From IMG/VR virus record IMGVR_UViG_3300014914_000024, positions 1 to 32,040 of that record: a stretch of DNA of 32,040 nucleotides; one strand, 5' to 3'. The translations under genes were made by a program, and so were the position numbers. The notes under the pieces were generated by a model. It did not search any database. It was not told the origin of the DNA and saw only the letters and a list, made by a program, of their open reading frames with translations. Within the stretch, counting starts at the first letter, position 1; each line of letters begins with the position of its first letter. This document shows, piece after piece, positions 2,153 through 27,429 of the stretch. The DNA comes from a virus.

Positions 2153-3526
2153 TTACCCGATCCTTCTAACATATTGATCAAACATTTCGCTAACGATTTT
2201 TCGAAACAAATCTTCAAGTTCAATTCGCGAAACTTCTTCTTTAACCGTTATCGGGATCTGCGGTTCCATGTTTACAACATTGATATTTGTTCCGCCGCCC
2301 GTTTTCACAACCGGGGTAATCACCGGGGTTGGTTCACGGGGCCTAACAATTTCTTTTGTAACCGTTAACGGAAACTTTGGAGATATTTTTCCCATTCCCG
2401 CCGCGATTCCCGCGGTGAAAGCCGTAGCTAATTCTTCACCCATGTGGACAATGTGTTTAAGTGGGCCGCGTTCTGGAAGTGAACCGCCGAAGAAACCGGC
2501 TAACCAATCGGTGAAGTTTTTCACTTGATCTTGGGCCCAATCTTTAGCTTTTTCAAACCCGCTTACAAACCATTTTATCAGGTTTTCACCGGCTTTTATC
2601 ATCCAATCTTTAAGCCCTGTGAGAAAACTTAAGACTCCTTTTAACGCGTCTTTAGCGTATTCGGCGGCGGCTTTCCAATCTCCGCGGAAAATAGCTTTAA
2701 TCATACCAAGCCCGTCTTTAACTAAACGTAATTGCAGTTTTAACGCGTCTCCGATTGGCCCGGGTAACCTACTTGTAACTTTAGACGTGATTTCTTCGAT
2801 TGTTTTCCAATCCCCGGTCCAAATAGCCTTCATAAGAGTTACGCCTTTACTCCAAGCGGCTTTAACGTTTTCAACAAATTTAGGTATGTTTGTTGAAAGC
2901 CATGAAATAGCGGCTTTAGTTTTGTCTCGGATACCAAGCCAATTATTGGTCCAAGCTACGTAAAGTAAAGCACCGGCCGCAATAACAAGCCCTATAACCG
3001 GAAGCAAAGTGGTCATAGACATTCCTAGAACGGTTATTCCGCCACTTGCGGCTACTCCGCCTACGCCTATCATTGAAAGTAGTGGTCCTAGTGTTGTTAT
3101 TACTCCGATCAGGGGGCCGATTGCGGCGGTTAAAGCTATTGCGGCGGCTATGAATTGCTGTACCGGTGCGGGTAAGGCTTCAAACCAATCTACGGCTTTT
3201 CCAATGATGTTGGCTAAAACTTCAAATGCGGGGCCAAGTTGTTCCCCTAGGATATATGCTACGCGTTCAAATTGGTAACTCATTTCATACATCGAAACCG
3301 ATAAGGTGGGTGACGCTTTGATCATTGAACGCATGGCTACAAGGGACATTCCGGCTATTACTAGGAACTGTGCTTTCCATTGTGTGGCGAATTTTTTGGA
3401 TTGTTCGGTTTGTTTTTTGATGTCTTTGCCAAATTGATCTAACATTTTACGGGCTTTTTGAAGGTTTTTCGTGGCTTCTTCTATTTGTGCTTTTACAATT
3501 ATTTTAAGTTCTTCTACGGTACTCAT
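2153..3526 (-). CDS. Tail tape measure protein
   Basis: 457 residues. The N-terminal coiled coil (about 1-50) is followed by hydrophobic, Ala/Gly-rich segments (about 120-195, e.g. QFIAAAIALTAAIGPLIGVI) and amphipathic Trp-containing repeats (NNWLGIRDKTKAAI, 'aiwtGDWKti', 'ifRGDWKAAaeyakdAL'), all typical of tape measure proteins. It is the longest gene of the tail operon and lies downstream of the G/GT chaperone pair. At roughly 1.5 angstrom per residue, a tail of about 70 nm is predicted; this is an estimate from a known rule, not a measurement. Confidence 0.9.
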   Translation of the reverse strand: MSTVEELKIIVKAQIEEATKNLQKARKMLDQFGKDIKKQTEQSKKFATQWKAQFLVIAGMSLVAMRSMIKASPTLSVSMYEMSYQFERVAYILGEQLGPAFEVLANIIGKAVDWFEALPAPVQQFIAAAIALTAAIGPLIGVITTLGPLLSMIGVGGVAASGGITVLGMSMTTLLPVIGLVIAAGALLYVAWTNNWLGIRDKTKAAISWLSTNIPKFVENVKAAWSKGVTLMKAIWTGDWKTIEEITSKVTSRLPGPIGDALKLQLRLVKDGLGMIKAIFRGDWKAAAEYAKDALKGVLSFLTGLKDWMIKAGENLIKWFVSGFEKAKDWAQDQVKNFTDWLAGFFGGSLPERGPLKHIVHMGEELATAFTAGIAAGMGKISPKFPLTVTKEIVRPREPTPVITPVVKTGGGTNINVVNMEPQIPITVKEEVSRIELEDLFRKIVSEMFDQYVRRIG

Positions 3527-3888
3527 AGTGGCCGCCTTATTTTTTCCTGTATGATATTAAATATTTCTCGGGCTTCATGTTTAGGTAAAGCGGATATTTC
3601 GGCTTCTTCCGGTTTCTGGTTTTCAGTTACCCCGGGAATCTTCAAAATAATCTTACTTGTGAAAATTCCGTTGAAAAGTTGAACGCTGAAAATCCGGGAA
3701 AACGGGTAAGACTCGATTTTTTTATGTAGGCCTAGTTTGCTTGGATTTATTATGAGAACCCGTTTATTTGTGACAATAATGGTATTCGGTGTGAGAAATG
3801 ATCCGCCGGGATAAACCCGGGATTGCCGTGATTTGGCTAAAACTTTTTCCCTGCGGTCAAATAGTTTTTTCAATTTCTTCAATTTCAT
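3523..3888 (-). CDS. PH-like domain protein in the tail operon
   Basis: 121 residues. After a basic N terminus, residues about 30-110 show a bacterial PH-like pattern: LTPNTIIVTNKRVLIINPSK, then YPFSRIFSVQLFNGIFTSKI, and a C-terminal helix KHEAREIFNIIQEKI. Such domains often bind lipids or proteins. It overlaps the resolvase-like gene upstream by 32 nt and the tape measure start by 4 nt (ATGA). No role of PH-like proteins in tails is established to my knowledge; the fold call comes from pattern only. Confidence 0.65.
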   Translation of the reverse strand: MKLKKLKKLFDRREKVLAKSRQSRVYPGGSFLTPNTIIVTNKRVLIINPSKLGLHKKIESYPFSRIFSVQLFNGIFTSKIILKIPGVTENQKPEEAEISALPKHEAREIFNIIQEKIRRPL

Positions 3889-4213
3889 TTGAAAAACCTT
3901 CGATTTTGTTTTCTTCTAACAATAAGTTTTTTGCGAAGGGCTTCTTATAGTTTGAGTTCCAATATGCTAAAATTGGGGTTGCACGGAGTTTTTTACTTAG
4001 ATTTAGTAGTTTTTCTTTTTCGGTTTTCGAAATTTTTCCGTGAACCCGGCATTCAACTATTAAAATCACGTGTTTTTTCAGGTTCCAATCGTATCGGATA
4101 GCTATTAGATCTACGGGTTTACTTCCCGCACATCTGAAAACAAGGAACCCGTCATTTTCAAGTTCCCGTTTAACTTTATATTCGAAGTTTCTTCCTTTTC
4201 GATATTTACTTAT
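3857..4213 (-). CDS. Hjc-like Holliday junction resolvase (no canonical start codon)
   Basis: The open frame runs from 4243 to the stop at 3857. From ATA 4213 it encodes 118 residues with the archaeal Hjc pattern: RKGRNFEYKVKRELENDGF (Glu11), VFRCAGSKPVDLIAI (Arg27, Ser31, Asp35), then ILIVECR (Glu54, Arg56, where Hjc has ExK), and KLRATPILAYW. These correspond to the PD-(D/E)XK nuclease core. No ATG or TTG occurs in frame before the core; the first is a GTG at 4069, which would remove the motifs. ATA at 4213 overlaps the preceding stop (ATAA) 8 nt after GGGGG, so initiation at ATA or a second frameshift is possible. It would resolve branched DNA before packaging. Arg for Lys may weaken catalysis. 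Confidence 0.6.
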   Translation of the reverse strand: MSKYRKGRNFEYKVKRELENDGFLVFRCAGSKPVDLIAIRYDWNLKKHVILIVECRVHGKISKTEKEKLLNLSKKLRATPILAYWNSNYKKPFAKNLLLEENKIEGFSNEIEEIEKTI

Positions 4214-4799
4214 CTTCTTAACCCCCTTAATGCTTGGGCTTTTTCAATTTCCATTTGAAGTTTTGCTTTACGGCGTTCTTTGGCTTCCCATTGAAGTATA
4301 GCTAAAATTGTTTCGTAGACTTTGTTAGGCATGTTTTGAACTTCGTACCATGTCATTCCGAATTCCCGCATTATTAGAATGTCGTTTATCCGCTTTGCGG
4401 TTTCGGGGTTTCTGATCGGGTAGCCGTCAAGGCCACGCCAAACCCCTTTTTTTCTTCCGGGGTAAGATCACTTAGTTCTATGATTTTTTTGTCAAGTATT
4501 TCAAGAACCCATCCGGCTAACACTTTGATTTTCCCGTCTTCGGTTTCTATTCCTTCTATTTCTTGTCTTGTAAGTGGTTTCCCGTTTTTACGTACACATT
4601 TAAGGATTCTTAATATTCGGGCTTCGTTTGGATCTGCGTCTAAAAGTTTTATTTCACCGGTTTTCTGGTTGATTTCTTTTTTAATACACTTATAGTCTAT
4701 GCGGTCCTTTTCTATTTTAGTTAGGCCGCGGATTGTGAAAGTTACGTCTCCGATTGTGATTTTTTCGGTTGGAATTTCGATAAAGGCTTTTCTTTCCAA
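4210..4799 (-). CDS. Tail assembly chaperone gpGT (programmed -1 frameshift product)
   Basis: The T frame (-1 relative to G) is open from the slippery site at 4446-4452 to a TAA at 4210, adding 78 residues (starting GVWRGLDGYPIRNPETAKRI, with MREFGMTWYEVQNMPNKVYE and a basic coiled-coil end). The T part has no good start of its own. As in lambda and many siphoviruses, a fraction of ribosomes should slip on A AAA AAG to make G-T, which loads the tape measure for tube assembly. The join reads LTPEEKK|GVWRG. Position between tube and tape measure is canonical, although a resolvase-like and a PH-like gene intervene before the tape measure. Confidence 0.8.
4386..4799 (-). CDS. Tail assembly chaperone gpG
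   Basis: 137 residues. The best start is TTG at 4799, exactly 5 nt after GGTGA, the spacing used by many genes here; longer starts would run into the tail tube gene. The protein starts MERKAFIEIPTEKITIGDV and is followed by a helical region (PNEARILRILKCVRKNGKPL) and ends TRSETPKPQSG. It is the zero-frame product of the G/GT pair and binds tube and tape-measure proteins during tail assembly in known systems. The family call is by position, size and the frameshift. Confidence 0.75.
   Translation of the reverse strand: MERKAFIEIPTEKITIGDVTFTIRGLTKIEKDRIDYKCIKKEINQKTGEIKLLDADPNEARILRILKCVRKNGKPLTRQEIEGIETEDGKIKVLAGWVLEILDKKIIELSDLTPEEKKGFGVALTATRSETPKPQSG
4446..4452 (-). other. Slippery heptamer A AAA AAG for -1 frameshifting
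   Basis: On the minus strand, codons GAA GAA AAA AAG GGG contain A AAA AAG in the correct zero-frame phase, followed by GGGG. The -1 frame is open for 79 codons downstream, and the zero frame stops 61 nt after the heptamer. The same heptamer drives dnaX frameshifting in E. coli. Confidence 0.8.
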
Positions 4800-4810
4800 G
4801 TTTTTCACCT

Positions 4811-5719
4811 TTAATATGTTGCTATGTTGTCTACTACTATGATTTGACATGTCCTTGGTTTTAACACGAGTTTCTGAAGGTATTCACCGGGTTCTTCAGG
4901 TAGTTCAAAGCCGGGTTCTTCGTAAAGAATATCGGACCAAACAAATTTAATTGTGTCACCGGTTCCCCTTGTAAACAATGCGTTTCCATCTATTGGAGAT
5001 GTTGGGGATTGGTTTTTCCAATTGTCCCAAAACGTGGCGTCTTCCGGGTTTATTTCAATTGCTAGATCGTTTGACCGTCTTCCTTCCGTTAGATAGGTTG
5101 GGCTACTTGAACCGCTGTGATATTTTGGTTTAACATTGTTTGCAAGGCCCCATGAAAACGATTTAACTATTGCCACGGTTGCCGCGTTCAAAGTAAATGT
5201 TAGTTGTTCAAATTTGTAGGGTTGCGTGGTGTCTTGGGTGACTGATGTGGCCGAAGTGTATTTTGCGATACTTGCACAATGGGCTTCAACCGATATTTTC
5301 AGATCATCGTCTTCACTTGCGGTTACGGTGATTTTATCTATTTTAGAACCTATGTAACGCCGCACGAAGTTGGCCCCGGGGATAGCGGCTTCAAATGTGA
5401 ATGTTGGTAGCTGATCGGCTACATCTATTGTATGTGTGTATGGGCCGGATCCTGAATCGGTTACGGATCCTAGGGCCATTACTAGGAATTTTCCGTTTTG
5501 CGGATAGTATTCGAAGCTAAACGGGTAGACGTATTTTCCTAGGCTTTGTAGAAGTGGATCTCTTTCCGCTGAATGGTAGTATTGTTTTACGGGGCGTTTT
5601 TCTTTAAGTGAAACGCCGCCGGGACATATTCCGATCCATTGGTCCGGTGTAGTTTCGGTGTAAGGGGTTGTTTCTTTTCCGTAGCTTATTTGCCATCCGC
5701 CTACAATATAGTCAGTCAT
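4811..5719 (-). CDS. Major tail tube protein
   Basis: 302 residues, beta-rich, with the layout of phage major tail tube proteins: an N-terminal segment (DYIVGGWQISYGKETTPY), a turn-rich core (GPYTHTIDVADQLPTFTFEA, IGSKIDKITVTASEDDDLKI) and a C-terminal strand pair (KLVLKPRTCQIIVVDNIATY). GGAGAGAA lies upstream of the ATG. It is placed after the tail terminator and immediately before the G/GT chaperones, the canonical tube position. It is larger than the lambda tube protein (246), perhaps with an added domain around 215-285. Confidence 0.85.
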   Translation of the reverse strand: MTDYIVGGWQISYGKETTPYTETTPDQWIGICPGGVSLKEKRPVKQYYHSAERDPLLQSLGKYVYPFSFEYYPQNGKFLVMALGSVTDSGSGPYTHTIDVADQLPTFTFEAAIPGANFVRRYIGSKIDKITVTASEDDDLKISVEAHCASIAKYTSATSVTQDTTQPYKFEQLTFTLNAATVAIVKSFSWGLANNVKPKYHSGSSSPTYLTEGRRSNDLAIEINPEDATFWDNWKNQSPTSPIDGNALFTRGTGDTIKFVWSDILYEEPGFELPEEPGEYLQKLVLKPRTCQIIVVDNIATY

Positions 5720-5912: not shown

Positions 5913-6359
5913 CTATGGAGTTGGATATACGAAACACTCGATTTCCACAGTTTTACGGTAAGGTTTTTCCGCTAAAGGTAGCGGATTCATGTGGAAACCT
6001 ACTATTTGAAGATTCCAAATCCCGTAATCATTAATTGAAGAAATCTGGTTTCTAAGTTGGTAAATTACTTGATCGGTAAGTTCATCAAGTTCTTTAGCGG
6101 AATTGCTTAAAATATCGATTCGTAGCCGCTGATTATATTTAAAAAAAGTGGCATTTACACCTAAACGGCTACCGTAACCCGCGGCTTGATAAACAATAAC
6201 ATGAGGATAGTAGATTGTTCCTTTTTCAGGGTAACTTGTCATAACAAACGGGGCTTTATCAGACGGCCGGGGATCCTTGGGATCGGTAAGATTGTTTCTA
6301 AGTAGATCTCTTATGAAAATAACAACATCATGGACAATTGTACTATTTCCAACCGACAT
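5913..6359 (-). CDS. Tail terminator (tail completion) protein
   Basis: 148 residues from ATG 6359 (starting MSVGNSTIVHDVVIFIRDLL). The pattern of an N-terminal helix, 'YPEKGTIYYPHVIVYQAAGY', 'LRIDILSNSAKELDELTDQV' and a final 'KTVEIECFVY' strand matches lambda gpU / SPP1 gp17-like tail terminators. The frame is open further upstream to 6473, but a TATA-like CTTAAATATTTA at 6425-6436 sits inside that extension and GGGTG precedes 6359, so the shorter start is preferred. It is the first gene of the tail operon. Confidence 0.75.
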   Translation of the reverse strand: MSVGNSTIVHDVVIFIRDLLRNNLTDPKDPRPSDKAPFVMTSYPEKGTIYYPHVIVYQAAGYGSRLGVNATFFKYNQRLRIDILSNSAKELDELTDQVIYQLRNQISSINDYGIWNLQIVGFHMNPLPLAEKPYRKTVEIECFVYPTP

Positions 6360-6424
6360 AACAAAACACCCAACCGGGCTTAGACAATCGGCCTTACGTA
6401 GCCGATCAACTAAAAATAGCCGCT

Positions 6425-6436
6425 CTAAATATTTAA
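6425..6436 (-). promoter_or_regulatory. TATA box of the tail operon
   Basis: On the minus strand, CCCTTAAATATTTAG lies about 65-75 bp before the preferred ATG at 6359. It fits the archaeal BRE/TATA consensus and lies about 50 bp downstream of the nearest dispersed element (6486-6537). Confidence 0.5.
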
Positions 6437-6485
6437 GGGATGTGGAAAAAGGTTTTTTTCGGTTAGTTACCACTTTAACCCGAAC

Positions 6486-6537
6486 TTCTTACCAACCCTT
6501 TAACCCGCATGATCATCATCAAAGAGTAGGTAAGAAA
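6486..6537. repeat. Dispersed inverted-repeat element, copy 1
   Basis: Left arm TTCTTACCAAC and right arm GTAGGTAAGAA, with one A-A mismatch in an otherwise 11-bp dyad. Total about 52 bp. It lies between the divergent tail operon (minus) and the 6647 operon (plus). In the family's common orientation (TTCTTACCWACTYTTTG...) this copy reads on the minus strand. Confidence 0.9.
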
Positions 6538-6603
6538 ATTAGCTTTAGGAAAGTTATTATTTGTTTCAATAATTGTTTAATATCTTATCTATATACCATA
6601 AGG

Positions 6604-6619
6604 TTTATATATAATATAA
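6604..6619 (+). promoter_or_regulatory. TATA-box promoter of the 6647-7500 operon
   Basis: GGTTTATATATAATATAAGG is a strong archaeal TATA box about 30-40 bp before the ATG at 6647. The leader AAGTAAGGTGATGAAG carries the ribosome site. Confidence 0.7.
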
Positions 6620-6646
6620 GGTATATATGTAAGTAAGGTGATGAAG

Positions 6647-6931
6647 ATGGAAGGGAAAATAAAAATCATAAGTCTACCGGTGTGGTTTGTAAGAAAAAGC
6701 GGCTTTATGTACTATGCCGCTTTAACACCTACCGGAATCGAAGCTAGAAAAGGAAAAGATAGAGTGATATATAAAGGAAAGATTGAAAAAGAGACGGAAA
6801 AAGCTTTTTTGTTTAGGCCGTTTTTAGGAATACCGCCGCGAGATAAACTATGTCCTGAAGCCTTTTGGATACCTAAATCAATAACAAAGTTTCTAGAAAA
6901 AGAACCCGAGGAGTGGGTTGAAATTGACTAA
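6647..6931 (+). CDS. Small protein of module A (unassigned)
   Basis: 94 residues from ATG 6647, 5 nt after GGTGA; the in-frame GTG 6638 and ATG 6641 overlap the ribosome site itself. The protein has a beta-rich N half (KIKIISLPVWFVRKSGFMYY) resembling small SH3 or AbrB-type folds, then PFLGIPPRDKLCPEAFWIP. First gene of a three-gene plus-strand run just after element copy 1. No family recognised. Confidence 0.75.
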   Translation: MEGKIKIISLPVWFVRKSGFMYYAALTPTGIEARKGKDRVIYKGKIEKETEKAFLFRPFLGIPPRDKLCPEAFWIPKSITKFLEKEPEEWVEID

Positions 6932-7175
6932 TAATGAAAAGAAAGCAAAATATATAGTTAGTCTTTGGCTTGGGGAAATGATTTTATCTAAAAAAGATTG
7001 GGAAAAAATTAGAAAGTTAAGAAAAGAAGGAGTCATCGTTGATGTCTATGATGGTGATGAGTGTGTTTTTGAAATATATGTAAAAACAAAGAAAGACGCG
7101 GAATATGTAAAAAAGATGTTCGAAAATTGGCCGGAACCTGTAGAAATACGAAAAGTAGGTGATGAAGTTGTCTAA
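6924..7175 (+). CDS. Small protein of module A (unassigned)
   Basis: 83 residues. TTG 6924 is preferred because GAGGAGTGG lies about 8 nt upstream and it overlaps the previous stop by 8 nt; TTG 6918 is an alternative. The N half is helical (KKDWEKIRKLRKEGVIVDVY), then acidic DGDECVFEIYVKTKKDAEYV, suggesting a small alpha/beta fold. Unknown function; co-transcribed with its neighbours. Confidence 0.7.
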   Translation: MTNNEKKAKYIVSLWLGEMILSKKDWEKIRKLRKEGVIVDVYDGDECVFEIYVKTKKDAEYVKKMFENWPEPVEIRKVGDEVV

Positions 7176-7500
7176 GATCGGCTTGGGGTTCAAAAGGAAA
7201 CTTGAAAAAGCTATTATGAATTTTGCTTTGGAGCGGCCCCGGTTATATAAGGGTAATAAGGAGTTTTTCGATCAAGTGTTGGCTAGGTACCCGGAGATCG
7301 TGGATCAAATGTTAAAATGGTTTCAGGAACATCCTAAGTCTACTAGTTTTATCATTTATACTTACAATAGGTTGTCACGGTGGACCGAGATAATAATCAG
7401 AATAAAACGTAGTGGGAAAATTGAGATTTTTAAGGCTTACAAGGTTCATGAAAACTATGGGCCGGATCAAATATTTTTCATAGCCCAATCTTTACGTTAA
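7168..7500 (+). CDS. Small protein of module A (unassigned)
   Basis: 110 residues from TTG 7168, 5 nt after GGTGA, overlapping the previous gene by 8 nt. Helical N half (FALERPRLYKGNKEFFDQVL, ...QMLKWFQEHP), then strands (WTEIIIRIKRSGKIEIFKAY). Ends tail-to-tail with the minus-strand gene at 7497, sharing the four bases TTAA so that each strand reads TAA. No family recognised. Confidence 0.7.
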   Translation: MSKIGLGFKRKLEKAIMNFALERPRLYKGNKEFFDQVLARYPEIVDQMLKWFQEHPKSTSFIIYTYNRLSRWTEIIIRIKRSGKIEIFKAYKVHENYGPDQIFFIAQSLR

Positions 7501-7742
7501 CTTTTCTTTTTTATCCATTCCAAGACTTTTTCACATAACTTACATTTAGGGAAGGGACAATTATTTTTCATAACTTCTACTTGTTCTTTGAAGCTTAGTT
7601 TTTCAAACGGTTCTTCCATTTCCCCTAAGAAAAAACTCATACAATCAGAAAAAAACTGAAATTCTTTCGGCGTAAGTAAATGAGAGTTTTTAAGTTCATC
7701 ATACGACATATATAAACCCACCGCCCAAAACATATTAGACAT
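7497..7742 (-). CDS. Small Cys-cluster protein of module A
   Basis: 81 residues from ATG 7742 (MSNMFWAVGLYMSYDELKNS). The C-terminal CPFPKCKLCEKVLEWIKKK, with an upstream Cys, could bind metal. No ribosome site is visible; TATA-like CCTTAAAATC (about 7771-7780) lies roughly 30 bp upstream of the ATG, so the mRNA may be nearly leaderless. Element copy 2 lies just upstream of that promoter. Convergent with 7168-7500. Confidence 0.7.
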   Translation of the reverse strand: MSNMFWAVGLYMSYDELKNSHLLTPKEFQFFSDCMSFFLGEMEEPFEKLSFKEQVEVMKNNCPFPKCKLCEKVLEWIKKKS

Positions 7743-7791
7743 TTTCAAAAATTTCTAAATTGTTTTAGATGATTTTAAGGTTTCGATGCGG

Positions 7792-7845
7792 TTTCTTACC
7801 AACCTTTTGGTGATGTTCATGGTTCTCAAAGAGTTGGTAAGAAAA
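7792..7845. repeat. Dispersed inverted-repeat element, copy 2
   Basis: Arms TTTCTTACCAAC and GTTGGTAAGAAA form a perfect 12-bp dyad around a loop of about 30 bp. Reading on the minus strand it starts TTCTTACCAACTCTTTGAG, closely matching copy 1. It lies about 15 bp upstream of the TATA of the 7742 gene and downstream of the 7866-8165 regulator. Confidence 0.9.
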
Positions 7846-7865
7846 TGAAGTTAAAAAGTTGCTGA

Positions 7866-8165
7866 TTAATGTTGTTTTTGGTTAGGGTAAAAGTTAGGTT
7901 TTAATGTGGTTTGTGCGGGGTATAGACGGTAGCCGTTTAGAATGCTTAGTTTTATGAAACCGGTTTCTTCTAAGTGTTTTAGGTATTCGATTGCTTTGTT
8001 TCTTTTTACACCGTATTCTTTCATAATCCATTTTACCGCTTGTTTTACGGTTGGTTTATGTGCGGAAACATAGCTGAAAATCTCTTGTAACCGTTTTTTC
8101 CGTAAACCGGCTACGTTTACTTCGAATACGTGGTGGCATTTTGGACATGTCACGGTGATGGACAC
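7866..8165 (-). CDS. Zinc-ribbon-like winged-helix transcription regulator
   Basis: 99 residues from GTG 8165 (ribosome site GGGGTAA). N-terminal TCPKCHHVFEVNV is a half zinc ribbon with one CxxC and nearby His. Residues about 30-85 form a winged helix (KPTVKQAVKWIMKEYGVKRN, AIEYLKHLEETGFIKLSILN, GYRLYP). Probably binds viral promoters. Has its own promoter with TCTTTAAATAC at 8221-8233. Confidence 0.75.
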   Translation of the reverse strand: MSITVTCPKCHHVFEVNVAGLRKKRLQEIFSYVSAHKPTVKQAVKWIMKEYGVKRNKAIEYLKHLEETGFIKLSILNGYRLYPAQTTLKPNFYPNQKQH

Positions 8166-8189
8166 TTTAAGTTACCCCTACTTGAATTT

Positions 8190-8215
8190 CTTATTTTCTA
8201 TGTAACAAGAACGTA
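8190..8215 (-). promoter_or_regulatory. 26-bp motif shared with 18045-18070
   Basis: On the minus strand TACGTTCTTGTTACATAGAA plus AATAAG; 23 of 26 bases match the plus strand at 18045-18070. It lies between the TATA (8221-8233) and the start of the regulator gene, over the expected transcription start. Confidence 0.55.
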
Positions 8216-8220
8216 AAAAT

Positions 8221-8233
8221 AAGTATTTAAAGA
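8221..8233 (-). promoter_or_regulatory. TATA box of the 8165 regulator
   Basis: On the minus strand TCTTTAAATACTT, a good archaeal TATA box, about 60 bp upstream of the GTG start. Confidence 0.6.
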
Positions 8234-8259
8234 TTTCGACATTTATCAATCAAAAACAA

Positions 8260-8272
8260 GTTGAAATTCAAC
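8260..8272. promoter_or_regulatory. 13-bp palindrome, candidate operator
   Basis: GTTGAAATTCAAC is a perfect 6+1+6 palindrome about 27 bp upstream of the TATA box of the 8165 regulator and about 10 bp before the stop of no gene (the 8299 gene ends just beyond). An activator or autoregulatory site is possible. Confidence 0.35.
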
Positions 8273-8298
8273 AAAAATATACATGTAAAAATATATAA

Positions 8299-8751
8299 CT
8301 ATGTTTTAGATTCTTTAATCAGGTTTCGAATCTCTTTTCTAATCAGTTTTTTAATTTTTCCACGGTTCATCATATACGCGGGTGTCATAAAAGGTTGCGG
8401 TTGGGTTCCGTGTTTTGCGATACTTGCTTGAATAGCGTAGGCGGCTTGTTCCGGTAATCCGTGTCGTTTAGCCCATCTTTTAAGTGGTTCTATTGGCGGC
8501 CAATGTGGAACGGTACCGTATTCCACGGCCCTCGCGTAAACAACATTAGTACCAACCTTAACCATGTTCCAATCTACGGGTTCCGTGTGAATAGAAGCCC
8601 GAAGCCGCCCTGTGTCAACCGGACAAAGATTTTTCGCGTCATATTCTATGAGGTAACCGGCGGCCATCAAAATAGTTGTGATTTTCCGTTTGATTTTCTG
8701 GTTTAGTTTTTCTAAGTCTATTTTTATTTTTGTTTTTATTTCAAGGGCCAT
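8299..8751 (-). CDS. HK97 gp10-like neck/tail-completion protein
   Basis: 150 residues. Contains the family signature NLCPVDTGRLRASI (about 42-55), VVYARAVEYGTVPHWPPIEP (about 69-88) and LKRWAKRHGLP, with a basic C terminus ending in helices. Such proteins join head and tail. It overlaps the upstream stopper gene by one base and ends the head-neck operon before the regulatory insert (6647-8165) that separates it from the tail terminator, normally its neighbour. Confidence 0.9.
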   Translation of the reverse strand: MALEIKTKIKIDLEKLNQKIKRKITTILMAAGYLIEYDAKNLCPVDTGRLRASIHTEPVDWNMVKVGTNVVYARAVEYGTVPHWPPIEPLKRWAKRHGLPEQAAYAIQASIAKHGTQPQPFMTPAYMMNRGKIKKLIRKEIRNLIKESKT

Positions 8752-9104
8752 TATGTTAGCTTCCTTTTCAAGGTTATTTTTGTTACGGTTGTTCCCGCGT
8801 AGGTTATCACAGTTTTAGACTCTATTTTATAGGTGTCTCCATTGTAGATTATTTGTTCACCTTCGTTTACGGTCACGGTGCTTGGAACAAGGGCTTCAAG
8901 ATCCCCGGGAACACTTGTTTTACCTTCCAATCGATGTTCAAATTTATGGGTTTTAGTTGGAATCACAAAGATTTTAATTGATGTATCGGTGTAAGTTGTT
9001 TGACTTGTATCTATTTCATCGTATTCATTGTAAACCACAGAAGCCACTTTTCTATGGGTTACGGTTACACCGTTCTGATTAATAAAATGATCCAATATGG
9101 TCAT
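8751..9104 (-). CDS. Head closure (stopper) protein
   Basis: 117 residues, small beta barrel pattern: VTVTHRKVASVVYNEYDEID, SIKIFVIPTKTHKFEHRLEG, GEQIIYNGDTYKIESKTVIT, ending KITLKRKLT. This fits SPP1 gp16 / lambda FII-like stoppers. Position between connector and gp10-like protein supports it. Overlaps the upstream connector by 4 nt. Confidence 0.8.
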   Translation of the reverse strand: MTILDHFINQNGVTVTHRKVASVVYNEYDEIDTSQTTYTDTSIKIFVIPTKTHKFEHRLEGKTSVPGDLEALVPSTVTVNEGEQIIYNGDTYKIESKTVITYAGTTVTKITLKRKLT

Positions 9105-9879: not shown

Positions 9880-10335
9880 TTATTTTCCGTGTGCGGTTTT
9901 CATGTGAAGATCTAAGGCTTTTTTACTTGTAAACTTCTTTCCACATCCTTCCACGGGACAAACAAAAACTTTAGTTTTTGTTTTAGGCTTTTCTTCCCCT
10001 ATAAGTTCTTCGGTTAATTTTTCTAGTTCCGGTGCGTAAGGTGCTTCGATTTGTTTTATTAAGGTTTTAAGAATTGTTTCAGCGGCCGTTTTACTTGTTT
10101 TAGCAAGTTTCTTTAAGGCTTTCAAAATGCCGGGTTCAATTTTCTTTTCAATTTCCGGGGGAACAACAAGTTCATCTTCTTCCGTAACTTCTTCGTAACC
10201 CATTTGACGTAGAAGCCGGGCGTCTTCTTCACTTGTAACCACAATCTTATGGTCCTTAAAGTAAAAAACTTTGTCCGGTGTTGGCCTAGCTATTTCGTTT
10301 TTTCCTTCACTACGGAAAATCCATTTCTTACCCAT
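9880..10335 (-). CDS. Capsid-operon protein with C-terminal C2H2 zinc finger
   Basis: 151 residues. The N-terminal part (IFRSEGKNEIARPTPDKVFY, then EEDARLLRQMGYEEVTEED) resembles the short phage domain often found next to capsid genes. The middle is helical, and residues 126-149 form a C2H2 finger (C126, C131, H144, H149; spacing 4-12-4) in VFVCPVEGCGKKFTSKKALD. Lies between the decoration candidate and the connector. The finger has the same spacing as the one in TerL. GGTGAT precedes the ATG. Minor capsid or DNA-binding role is an inference. Confidence 0.75.
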   Translation of the reverse strand: MGKKWIFRSEGKNEIARPTPDKVFYFKDHKIVVTSEEDARLLRQMGYEEVTEEDELVVPPEIEKKIEPGILKALKKLAKTSKTAAETILKTLIKQIEAPYAPELEKLTEELIGEEKPKTKTKVFVCPVEGCGKKFTSKKALDLHMKTAHGK

Positions 10336-16156: not shown

Positions 16157-16273
16157 AGTATCCCCTTTTTACAATAAGTTTGTCTAAAATATGACTTAAA
16201 TTATATTTAAATTTACTTAAAATTGAAAACATGTTTTTGACTTGTTTTGTTGGGTTGCGGCGTGGACCTGAAA

Positions 16274-16324
16274 TTCTTACCTACCGTTCCAACCACGTTA
16301 TGGTTCATGTTTGGTAGGTAAGAT
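16274..16324. repeat. Dispersed inverted-repeat element, copy 4
   Basis: Arms TTCTTACCTACC and GGTAGGTAAGA form a near-perfect dyad. It reads on the plus strand and its right end directly touches the TATA box of the 16366 gene, the closest promoter contact in the family. Confidence 0.9.
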
Positions 16325-16336
16325 TTATATATGATT

Positions 16337-16746: not shown

Positions 16747-17090
16747 TCTTTTTCTTGTTTTTCTTGTTTTCCGCGGGTTAATCCTTCTTCTTCGATTTCA
16801 TCTAGTTCTTCAGGGGTTTTATCACTAATAATAAGGCCTAAACGTTTCATGTCCCCTAAAGTTGTGTAGCCGCGTTTTTTATAGCCGGGTAAATCTTTAA
16901 CCTTTTTCCAAAAATCGCGTTTTTCTTCTTCCGAAAGTTCCTTTTCTTCTTTTTCGGGATTTTCTTCCTTATGGGTATATTCTTCTTTTTGTTCCTTTTG
17001 GGGTTTTTCTTCCTTTTCTTCTTTTTGGGTATATTGGTACTTTTCTTCCTTTTGTGACTTTTGTAACTTTTCTGGTTTTTGACTAGTCAT
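16743..17090 (-). CDS. Lys/Glu/Gln-rich low-complexity protein
   Basis: 115 residues from ATG 17090, 7 nt after GGTGAC. Residues about 5-60 are imperfect charged repeats (KEEKYQYTQKEEKEEKPQKE). The C half (DFWKKVKDLPGYKKRGYTTL, GDMKRLGLIISDKTPEELDE) may be a small folded domain. Overlaps the upstream gene by 8 nt. Last gene of module B. Function unknown. Confidence 0.65.
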   Translation of the reverse strand: MTSQKPEKLQKSQKEEKYQYTQKEEKEEKPQKEQKEEYTHKEENPEKEEKELSEEEKRDFWKKVKDLPGYKKRGYTTLGDMKRLGLIISDKTPEELDEIEEEGLTRGKQEKQEKD

Positions 17091-17253
17091 TTTTTGTGTC
17101 ACCTTTAGGTGACATTTCAACTTGACTAGTCTCCGGTGGTTTTAGTTGATCGGAAAAGAATTTTCTTAGAATTTCATCTAGTATTTTTTTGTCGTAGATT
17201 TTCAGGACCATATCACCTTTTTTGAATTCCGCGATTTTGGGTTTTTTCGGCAT
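17083..17253 (-). CDS. Small basic protein downstream of the repeat array
   Basis: 56 residues from ATG 17253 (MPKKPKIAEFKKGDMVLKIY, KILDEILRKFFSDQ). The start is chosen because TGTGA lies exactly 5 nt upstream, the usual spacing here. The frame is also open to an ATG at 17367 through a repeat-encoded Ser-Asn-Asn stretch, but that ATG has no ribosome site, so the repeats may be untranslated. Unknown function. Confidence 0.55.
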   Translation of the reverse strand: MPKKPKIAEFKKGDMVLKIYDKKILDEILRKFFSDQLKPPETSQVEMSPKGDTKND

Positions 17254-17263
17254 ATTCATCACA

Positions 17264-17360
17264 TTGTTACTTTTAGGTATATTGTTACTATTGTTACTTA
17301 TAAGGTTTTTCTTCTTTTTGTTACTTTTAGGTATATTGTTACTATTGTTACTATTGTTAC
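17264..17360. repeat. Direct-repeat (iteron-like) array
   Basis: Seven TTGTTAC heptamers begin at 17264, 17282, 17291, 17318, 17336, 17345 and 17354. A 35-bp block occurs twice without change (17264-17298 and 17318-17352), offset by 54 bp. The intervening bases contain TTATAAGGTTTTT. Such spacing suits protein binding along one DNA face; an origin or operator is a hypothesis. Confidence 0.7.
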
Positions 17361-17503
17361 TTTTCATGTACGGGCCGAAGATCCCCGCCGCATTTTCGGC
17401 ATTTAAATCCTAGCCGCTCAGCTATTATTAGTGGATAGCTTATACGGCATTTCGGACATCGATAGTAAAATGCGTAGTCTTCTTTCACCGTGGCCGATTT
17501 CAT
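17357..17503 (-). CDS. Small zinc-ribbon protein
   Basis: 48 residues, MKSATVKEDYAFYYRCPKCR, then FKCRKCGGDLRPVHEK: two CxxC knuckles 18 residues apart, a compact zinc ribbon. ATG overlaps the stop of the ribbon-helix-helix gene (ATGA), so the two are coupled. The coding end touches the repeat array. Confidence 0.7.
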   Translation of the reverse strand: MKSATVKEDYAFYYRCPKCRISYPLIIAERLGFKCRKCGGDLRPVHEK

Positions 17504-18070: not shown

Positions 18071-18075
18071 AAAAA

Positions 18076-18126
18076 TTCTTACCAACCCTTCGCGACACAG
18101 GTCCCTTTTCAAAAAGTAGGTAAGAA
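18076..18126. repeat. Dispersed inverted-repeat element, copy 5
   Basis: Arms TTCTTACCAAC and GTAGGTAAGAA, one A-A mismatch. Reads on the minus strand as TTCTTACCTACTTTTTGAAA. It separates module B from the long minus-strand operon ending at 18145. Confidence 0.9.
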
Positions 18127-18144
18127 ATCCAGAAAACAAGTATT

Positions 18145-18369
18145 TCACCTTAGAATTATTGTTAGATCTTTTAGGAACCATCCGGTGTAGATGGCTTTTA
18201 AGTTATGTTTTCTGCAGAATTTAAAGATTTTTTCTTGTTTCTGGTCCGGTAGATTTTTGAAATCTATTATCGTTATGGAAAACGGGAGATCTTCAACATT
18301 TAGTTTACGGCCTACTTGCCAACTTAACCAATAAACTATTTTTGATATCGGCATGTTTTCGGATGCCAT
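18145..18369 (-). CDS. Small alpha/beta protein (unassigned)
   Basis: 74 residues, GGTGA 7 nt before the ATG. Overlaps the end of the ATP-grasp gene by 34 nt. MPISKIVYWLSWQVGRKLNV, then FSITIIDFKNLPDQKQEKIF, ending in a basic segment. Last gene of the operon before element copy 5. No family recognised; co-translation suggests a partner of the ATP-grasp protein. Confidence 0.7.
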   Translation of the reverse strand: MASENMPISKIVYWLSWQVGRKLNVEDLPFSITIIDFKNLPDQKQEKIFKFCRKHNLKAIYTGWFLKDLTIILR

Positions 18370-19088
18370 GAAACTTCACCTAACCCCATGTCGATTAAAA
18401 GCCATTTTCCCGTTTTTGTTTTCGCGAAATCAACACTCCAATATCCATCCAATTTTTTAGCTATTTTCGCGGCGTAAGAAGTCAACAATTTAACTTCCCT
18501 TGGATGTTCAATATTCATCTGGTATAGTCTTTCCCGCCAATCTTCCGGCGGTACGTAGCCTTTTTCCCAAAATTTTATGGCGTCTTCCGGCCAATAAGGA
18601 TGATGACATTGAACTTTCCCATCCCTGATGAAATATCTTCGTTCCGGTGCTATCGGCAACCCATTAAACGCCTTAAACTTCCAATCAAGTTCAACATATT
18701 CCCTGATAACAATAGCATTCACAGGTAAACCGAACAAACTTACGGCTAAACTTTCATCCAATAACCGTAAAAGATTAAGTTTCAGTTTTTCCGGGCTTTC
18801 CACAAAACATGTTTCCTTAAAATGATGTTTACCGCTGAAATAATCGGTTCTCATAAAAACCGGGTACTTAAAATTGTTAATCCAAATTATTTTAACAAGT
18901 TTTTTAACAAATGAATCAAACACACTTGCGTCTTCAAACATGTTGTAGATTGAATATTTTTCTTTTTCAAACGGAACAATGATAGATCTAGGCGTAGGAA
19001 CCAGATGGGCCACTCGGGGAAACCAATAGCAAAAACTATTTTTCTCAGAATACAAAGCCCTAAAATACTCAATACTCATTTTATCCAT
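18336..19088 (-). CDS. ATP-grasp superfamily ligase (R2K-like)
   Basis: 250 residues. Pattern of the R2K clade of ATP-grasp proteins seen in phages: PVFMRTDYFSGKHHF (Arg80, Lys87), IVIREYVEL (Glu130), a hinge with APERRYFIRDGKV (Arg150-151), and YWSVDFAKTKTGKWLLIDMG plus LGEVSWHP (Asp220, Asp233, Glu238), which would bind Mg-ATP. ATP-grasp enzymes join a carboxylate to an amine, thiol or similar group; the substrate is unknown. It lies near the end of the long operon, just before a small gene that overlaps it. Assignment rests on motif order. Confidence 0.75.
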   Translation of the reverse strand: MDKMSIEYFRALYSEKNSFCYWFPRVAHLVPTPRSIIVPFEKEKYSIYNMFEDASVFDSFVKKLVKIIWINNFKYPVFMRTDYFSGKHHFKETCFVESPEKLKLNLLRLLDESLAVSLFGLPVNAIVIREYVELDWKFKAFNGLPIAPERRYFIRDGKVQCHHPYWPEDAIKFWEKGYVPPEDWRERLYQMNIEHPREVKLLTSYAAKIAKKLDGYWSVDFAKTKTGKWLLIDMGLGEVSWHPKTCRYQK

Positions 19089-23728: not shown

Positions 23729-23766
23729 TTTTTCCTATAGCCCTAGCCACACAGACTAGGGCGGGA
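23729..23766 (+). repeat. 38-bp hairpin element, copy 1
   Basis: Starts TTTTTCCTATAGCCCTAG and ends CTAGGGCGGGA; identical to 26902-26939. GCCCTAG pairs with CTAGGGC around the loop CCACACAGA. The end GCGGGAGATGA supplies the ribosome site of the next gene, so the hairpin lies just before it and could tune translation, or be a processing or partial termination site after the TTTTT run. Confidence 0.8.
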
Positions 23767-23777
23767 GATGAACAAAA

Positions 23778-24206
23778 ATGTTTGAGTTAAGTCTTGGTTT
23801 CACAATAGGGAAATATTTGGTAGAAAAGATTTATAAAAAATTAGTGGAGAAAAAGCCGCTTCCCGATGAACGGGAAGATGAAGGTATCATTGTTTTAGAA
23901 GTTGCACGGCCAATATATGAAGATGTTAAACACCAACTCGGTGATGTTGTGGCTAGAATTGTCTATGATAGGCTTTTAACGGCGGCGGAATTGCCTCAAG
24001 TTGCCGCGGAAGTTTATAAAGCCGTGGCCCATGCACAAAGATTTTTCAAAAAAATTACTTTAGTTCTTTCAGGGCCGATAGTTCTAGCGGCATTGATCGG
24101 CCAAGCTTTGGGAATGCAACATTTCAATGTAGATTTCGCGTTTTGGCAAAAAGGAAGCTATGTAAGAGTTCCAGATATGTCACAGTATCGAAAACTATTA
24201 TTCTAG
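23778..24206 (+). CDS. SAVED-like C-terminal-fold protein
   Basis: 142 residues. The C terminus LVLSGPIVLAALIGQALGM, FNVDFAFWQKGSYVRVPDM follows the 'l.aGP..lA..lGq.l.....v..y.....Y.p' pattern near the end of SAVED domains, which sense cyclic nucleotides in CBASS. The N half (GKYLVEKIYKKLVEKKPLPD, VLEVARPIYEDVKHQLGDVV) is not recognised. No effector domain. A decoy or sensor for host cyclic-nucleotide defence is a hypothesis. ATG preceded by GGGAGATGA within the hairpin element. Confidence 0.5.
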   Translation: MFELSLGFTIGKYLVEKIYKKLVEKKPLPDEREDEGIIVLEVARPIYEDVKHQLGDVVARIVYDRLLTAAELPQVAAEVYKAVAHAQRFFKKITLVLSGPIVLAALIGQALGMQHFNVDFAFWQKGSYVRVPDMSQYRKLLF

Positions 24207-26901: not shown

Positions 26902-26939
26902 TTTTTCCTATAGCCCTAGCCACACAGACTAGGGCGGGA
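26902..26939 (+). repeat. 38-bp hairpin element, copy 2
   Basis: All 38 bases identical to 23729-23766, including the 7-bp stem GCCCTAG/CTAGGGC. It follows the stop of the 26732 gene and precedes the GGTGA leader of the Cys-rich gene. Confidence 0.8.
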
Positions 26940-27345: not shown

Positions 27346-27376
27346 AGTTTTATTAAAATTAATATTTTAACTTCAA

Positions 27377-27429
27377 TTTCTTACCAACCTTTTCATCAAC
27401 ATGACCACTACCAAACGGTAGGTAAGAAA
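27377..27429. repeat. Dispersed inverted-repeat element, copy 6
   Basis: Arms TTTCTTACCAAC and GTAGGTAAGAAA, one A-A mismatch. On the minus strand it reads TTCTTACCTACCGTTTGG, sharing TTCTTACCTACCGTT with copy 4. It lies between two convergent operons, the only copy with no gene start next to it. Confidence 0.9.

Follow-up and report, generated by a model that had tools for sequence, protein, structure and literature searches.

How is a viral gene translated when its frame offers no ATG, GTG or TTG codon ahead of its catalytic core? The question is raised by the tail operon of an uncultivated tailed virus represented by the 32,040-base record IMGVR_UViG_3300014914_000024 (positions 1 to 32,040, hereafter the window), in which the minus-strand frame 4243-3857 is open over 128 codons and its first ATG, GTG or TTG is the GTG at 4069, inside the encoded domain. 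The host is probably an archaeon, an assignment made because the major capsid protein matches those of the haloarchaeal tailed viruses HHTV-2, HCTV-2 and HSTV-1, and because the gene order (portal, protease, capsid, tail tube, small genes, tape measure) is the same in the window and in HHTV-2.

Several other features of the genome were recorded. A small protein encoded beside the capsid gene (9883-10335, minus strand) carries a C2H2 zinc finger at its C-terminus (PF00096, with a score at its cut-off), and an R2K-clade ATP-grasp protein is encoded at 18339-19088 on the minus strand (PF14243, E=2.3e-10). A long low-complexity array with an imperfect 9-nt period lies at 16938-17364, within predicted minus-strand genes. 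A palindromic element of the form TTCTTACC(A/T)ACC, about 30 nt, and then GG TWGGTAAGAA, is dispersed in five copies (6483-6537, 7790-7844, 16271-16325, 18073-18127 and 27375-27429), several of them intergenic, and possibly represents operators or other regulatory sites of the virus. A perfect 38-nt direct repeat (CTATAGCCCTAGCCACACAGACTAGGGCGGGA plus flank) occurs at 23729-23766 and 26902-26939, directly ahead of the plus-strand genes at 23778 and 26953, and is a candidate for a shared promoter or operator.

The tail operon and its Hjc-like gene

On the minus strand, the operon runs from a tail tube protein gene (4811-5719, PF18906 profile match) through a gpG-like tail assembly chaperone (4386-4799), a gpT-like frame of that chaperone with no start of its own (4210-4467) and the Hjc-like PD-(D/E)XK gene (3857-4213, from ATA 4213 to TGA 3857, 118 aa), to the gene of a bacterial PH-domain protein (3523-3888, PF14470 profile match) and the tape measure gene (2153-3526). 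The PH-domain gene shares 32 nt with the 3' end of the Hjc-like gene. The labels gpG and gpT were assigned from position, size and frameshift signal, and profile searches gave no match to either frame. The gpG start is most likely TTG 4799, with GGTGA 5 nt upstream and with the coding signal beginning at that position, and not ATG 4850 as given by an ORF finder. Entry into the gpT frame by a -1 frameshift from gpG is supported by a classical -1 heptamer, A_AAA_AAG, read at 4446-4452 as the slippery site, and by the coding signal of the T frame.

The earlier note had regarded the frame downstream of gpT as clearly coding, and several measures agree. An opening of 128 codons would occur by chance in an alternative sense frame with a probability of about 1e-5, as computed for the window genome, and the longest such opening among the training genes was 91 codons. 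Codon usage gives a strong signal of 10.7 bits upstream of GTG 4069, and in a scan of the whole window so large a coding excess ahead of the first start was found in just two frames, this one and gpT, the latter explained by its entry through frameshifting. Furthermore, the product scores 31.1 bits (E=2.3e-7) with the PF01870 profile, whose cut-off is 21.1, and matches the sequence of Pyrococcus Hjc (PDB 1GEF) with E=1.4e-6. Its AF2 model (mean pLDDT 67, core about 85, with a poor, low-confidence C-terminal tail) has the same 1GEF as its best structural match by both Foldseek and VIA-align (Z 11.7, rmsd 2.7, 96 residues, 30% identity), which places it in the PD-(D/E)XK nuclease fold of solved Hjc structures.

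Like the Hjc of Pyrococcus and the Thermococcales (PF01870), the window protein has a YRKG N-terminus, the residues E11, D35 and E54, and an AGSK..DL motif; conversely, it has an Arg for the catalytic Lys, no ATG, a longer beta-hairpin between D35 and E54 and a divergent C-terminus, and it reaches 26.4 bits against the cut-off of 70 of the NCBIfam Hjc equivalog NF040854, which represents functional cellular Hjc. The frame is a genuine viral gene, and profile and structure together assign its product to the PD-(D/E)XK proteins of Pfam's Hjc grouping, with a fold like that of Holliday-junction nucleases. Since it fails the NF040854 cut-off and the catalytic Lys is absent, Hjc-like is the fitting name for this protein, which does not count as an established junction resolvase.

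The acidic catalytic residues E11 in the first helix (4183-4181), D35 (4111-4109) and E54 of the E-x-K (4054-4052) are all present and aligned with those of all relatives, and the further invariant Hjc positions R5, G7, G22, R27, S31 and A38 are also kept. The E-x-K itself reads ECR, with R56 (4048-4046) where all 11 other aligned sequences and all cellular relatives seen have Lys. One MAFFT alignment (A2) puts ECR two residues off, and another built with more diverse sequences (A3) places it on the E-x-K; in the AF2 model ECR lies at the end of strand 47-56. The Hjc-like identity, the three acidic residues and the ECR reading of the catalytic ExK had all been proposed in the earlier note, and each is borne out by these comparisons.

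Known virus-encoded relatives of Hjc include the rudiviral and haloviral Hjr/Hjc proteins of ARV1, ARV2, SMR1, Hardycor1 and HHTV-1. A Tyr follows E11 in the window protein, so that the first motif has E-Y in place of E-R; this is no sign of decay because it is common to rudiviral resolvases. Unlike the window gene, all the aligned rudiviral and haloviral genes keep EVK and carry ordinary annotated starts. In some rudiviruses the resolvase gene lies beside structural genes, whereas in HHTV-1 and Hardycor1 it is found outside the tail operon. A resolvase amid tail genes, which had been called unusual, is therefore so in comparison with HHTV-1 and Hardycor1 but not with the rudiviruses, and since rudiviral resolvases can adjoin structural genes, the position is uncommon rather than extraordinary.

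The ATA codon at 4213

All 32 cellular Hjc relatives collected in a first pass begin 2-4 codons before the [RK][RK]G motif, and with three added later, 35 of 35 begin 1-4 codons before the RKG motif. Two N-termini from the phylum Diapherotrites, MSKYRKG and MSRYRKG, align without gaps on (ATA)SKYRKG of the window, the former residue for residue. The ATA (4211-4213, minus strand) thus occupies the start-codon position of the family, and it overlaps the gpT stop TAA (4212-4210) as ATAA, an arrangement correctly likened to ATGA in the earlier note. The same 4-nt register is found in the window at the NTGA junctions at 1577, 3526, 5719, 9104, 21670, 22896 and 24903. Among the coupled junctions of archaea and bacteria the -4 overlap is the most frequent, and the register of upstream stop and downstream start is that of the ATGA termination-reinitiation junctions described in both domains (PMC10666635), the difference being that the window reads ATAA instead of NTGA.

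The ATA is preceded by a Shine-Dalgarno sequence, AAGGGGGTTA (4219-4228, minus strand), whose duplex with the 16S tail AUCACCUCCU at -10.3 kcal/mol is tied fifth among the 43 listed start sites, a value obtained with the common prokaryotic anti-Shine-Dalgarno, which may not be that of the host. Only 0.6% of random 24-mers reach -10 kcal/mol. The duplex ends where those of genuine starts end and its spacing is normal, the GGGGG at 4226-4222 being followed by 8 nt before the ATA, as previously counted. The form AAGGGGG is also found upstream of ATG 23111, TTG 24448 and TTG 24903, among others. Both strands of the window hold 1470 ATA triplets, and a comparable Shine-Dalgarno at proper spacing precedes four of them; the three other than ATA 4213 each have an ATG or GTG start only 2-4 nt away. 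What is found at 4213 is hence the configuration expected of an AUA-initiated gene, with ATA at the homologous start position and a Shine-Dalgarno at normal spacing. The coding score, in addition, is negative over the ten codons before the ATA (-4.7) and positive soon after it.

On the grounds of family start position, Shine-Dalgarno strength and spacing, 4-nt overlap and onset of the coding signal, the translation start site of the Hjc-like gene is placed at ATA 4213, whether used now or formerly an ATG. An ATT in the same frame, four codons upstream of GTT, was also considered and rejected as a start; the Shine-Dalgarno lies downstream of it.

Initiation at AUA or loss of the start

The reading that we place first, with a probability that stops just short of even, is that the gene is expressed at low yield by initiation at AUA 4213, through the strong Shine-Dalgarno and reinitiation. 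Met-tRNAi would initiate at this codon under the direction of AAGGGGGTTA, and termination-reinitiation may assist, since ribosomes that finish gpT would halt at the TAA overlapping the ATA. The DNA-junction-binding, nuclease-like protein would then be made in small, throttled amounts; from the features of the locus we infer all three parts of this reading, namely actual use of the AUA, a low yield, and binding or cutting of branched DNA by the protein. The AUA starts of infC, ccpN and citZ in Staphylococcus aureus give about 10-30% of the AUG yield, and the same study reports Shine-Dalgarno motifs that are extended and very strong at non-canonical starts which it identified (PMC13009471). Those genes are bacterial, cellular, conserved and experimentally proven, whereas the AUA of the window is known from sequence. 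Against the use of AUA counts the finding that, in archaea, initiation complexes formed on non-AUG mRNA are made less stable by aIF1 (PMC6237735).

A serious rival, to which we give an appreciable though clearly smaller weight, is that the start was an ATG, recently lost by a single G-to-A change, and that the gene is by now expressed barely or not at all, the change being either fixed in the virus or a strain variant in the assembled population. One mutation is enough to make ATAA from ATGA, it turns the gpT stop from TGA into TAA and is thus neutral for gpT, and every other feature of the start site of an ATG gene persists. Because an ATG-to-ATA change leaves those features intact, the anatomy of the site is no proof that AUA is used. 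The loss gains weight because the catalytic Lys of the E-x-K is also replaced: two positions that normally do not vary in the family, the start codon and this Lys, are both altered here, as they would be in a decaying gene. On the other hand, the frame remains open over its 128 codons with virus-like codon usage, the nine invariant Hjc positions are intact, Arg for Lys is a conservative replacement, and the fold is well predicted.

Relatives covering the junction would bear on these two readings, and searches of viral contigs with the Hjc-like protein, tail tube, portal, tape measure, baseplate, gpG and an Hjc alignment returned none that does. The nearest virus, contig L002, found in the portal search with about 92% DNA identity, stops at a point corresponding to window position 7200, before the junction; it holds about 3 kb of extra DNA (5942-9012 of the contig) between blocks matching window positions 9881 and 9781. 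The Hjc-like protein had no match among phage records, and the portal had none among genome contigs, in which the Hjc alignment found only three loci, in archaeal MAGs and taken as cellular Hjc. In genomes from the phyla of the Thermococci MAG (115 genomes), the Diapherotrites MAG (87) and the Parvarchaeota MAG (279), matches were confined to Hjc that seem to be cellular and to distant Mu-F-like domains.

An error of base calling or assembly at the ATA, with ATG in the real virus, is improbable. The record is a single assembled contig, and an ATG would give a wholly ordinary ATGA junction; yet the other genes of the window contain no obvious single-base error, and the start codons common to the window and the 92%-identical contig are all canonical and matching. 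The latter result likewise gives no sign of a general use of AUA as a start in this virus.

The earlier note had offered three options, an ATA start, a lost start, or a second ribosomal shift from the T frame yielding a three-part G-T-resolvase protein. The ATA site stands, as a start in use or a former ATG, but the second shift, near AGG GGG, is poorly supported and very unlikely. The Hjc-like frame is indeed -1 relative to gpT, as had been stated, the two frames overlap over 4243-4213, the run of five G would permit slippage of a Gly-tRNA, and the first shift, from G to T, is itself supported. However, the gpT/Hjc-like overlap contains no X XXY YYZ heptamer, the codons before the ATA carry the negative coding score given above, and two -1 shifts in series would have a yield equal to the product of both; the G5 run is accounted for by the Shine-Dalgarno, in a form that other genes use, and the homologues are independent proteins whose starts coincide exactly with the position of the ATA.

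Equally slight is the prospect of translation from GTG 4069, which is the first canonical start in frame but corresponds to residue 49, leaves the 10.7 bits of coding signal upstream and would yield a protein of 70 residues that lacks the fold's first strand and helix and half of the active site, given that E11 and D35 are lost, as the earlier note had anticipated, while E54, which it had also counted as removed, is kept together with ECR.

No AUA start in archaea or their viruses was found in the literature searched, which counts against its use here, and to our knowledge none has been described. The broader proposal, that an archaeal tailed virus has AUA as a genuine start which, behind an unusually strong Shine-Dalgarno and in overlap with the gpT stop, throttles a nuclease-like protein with Arg for Lys in its tail operon, is held tentatively, at a probability somewhat below that of AUA initiation at this gene as such. 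If the AUA is used, gene callers limited to ATG, GTG and TTG would miss or truncate genes of this kind, as here, where they would list just one ORF beginning at GTG 4069, and archaeal initiation would be more permissive than the work on aIF1 suggests. If the start has been lost instead, the locus would be a clear-cut instance of early decay in a viral accessory gene.
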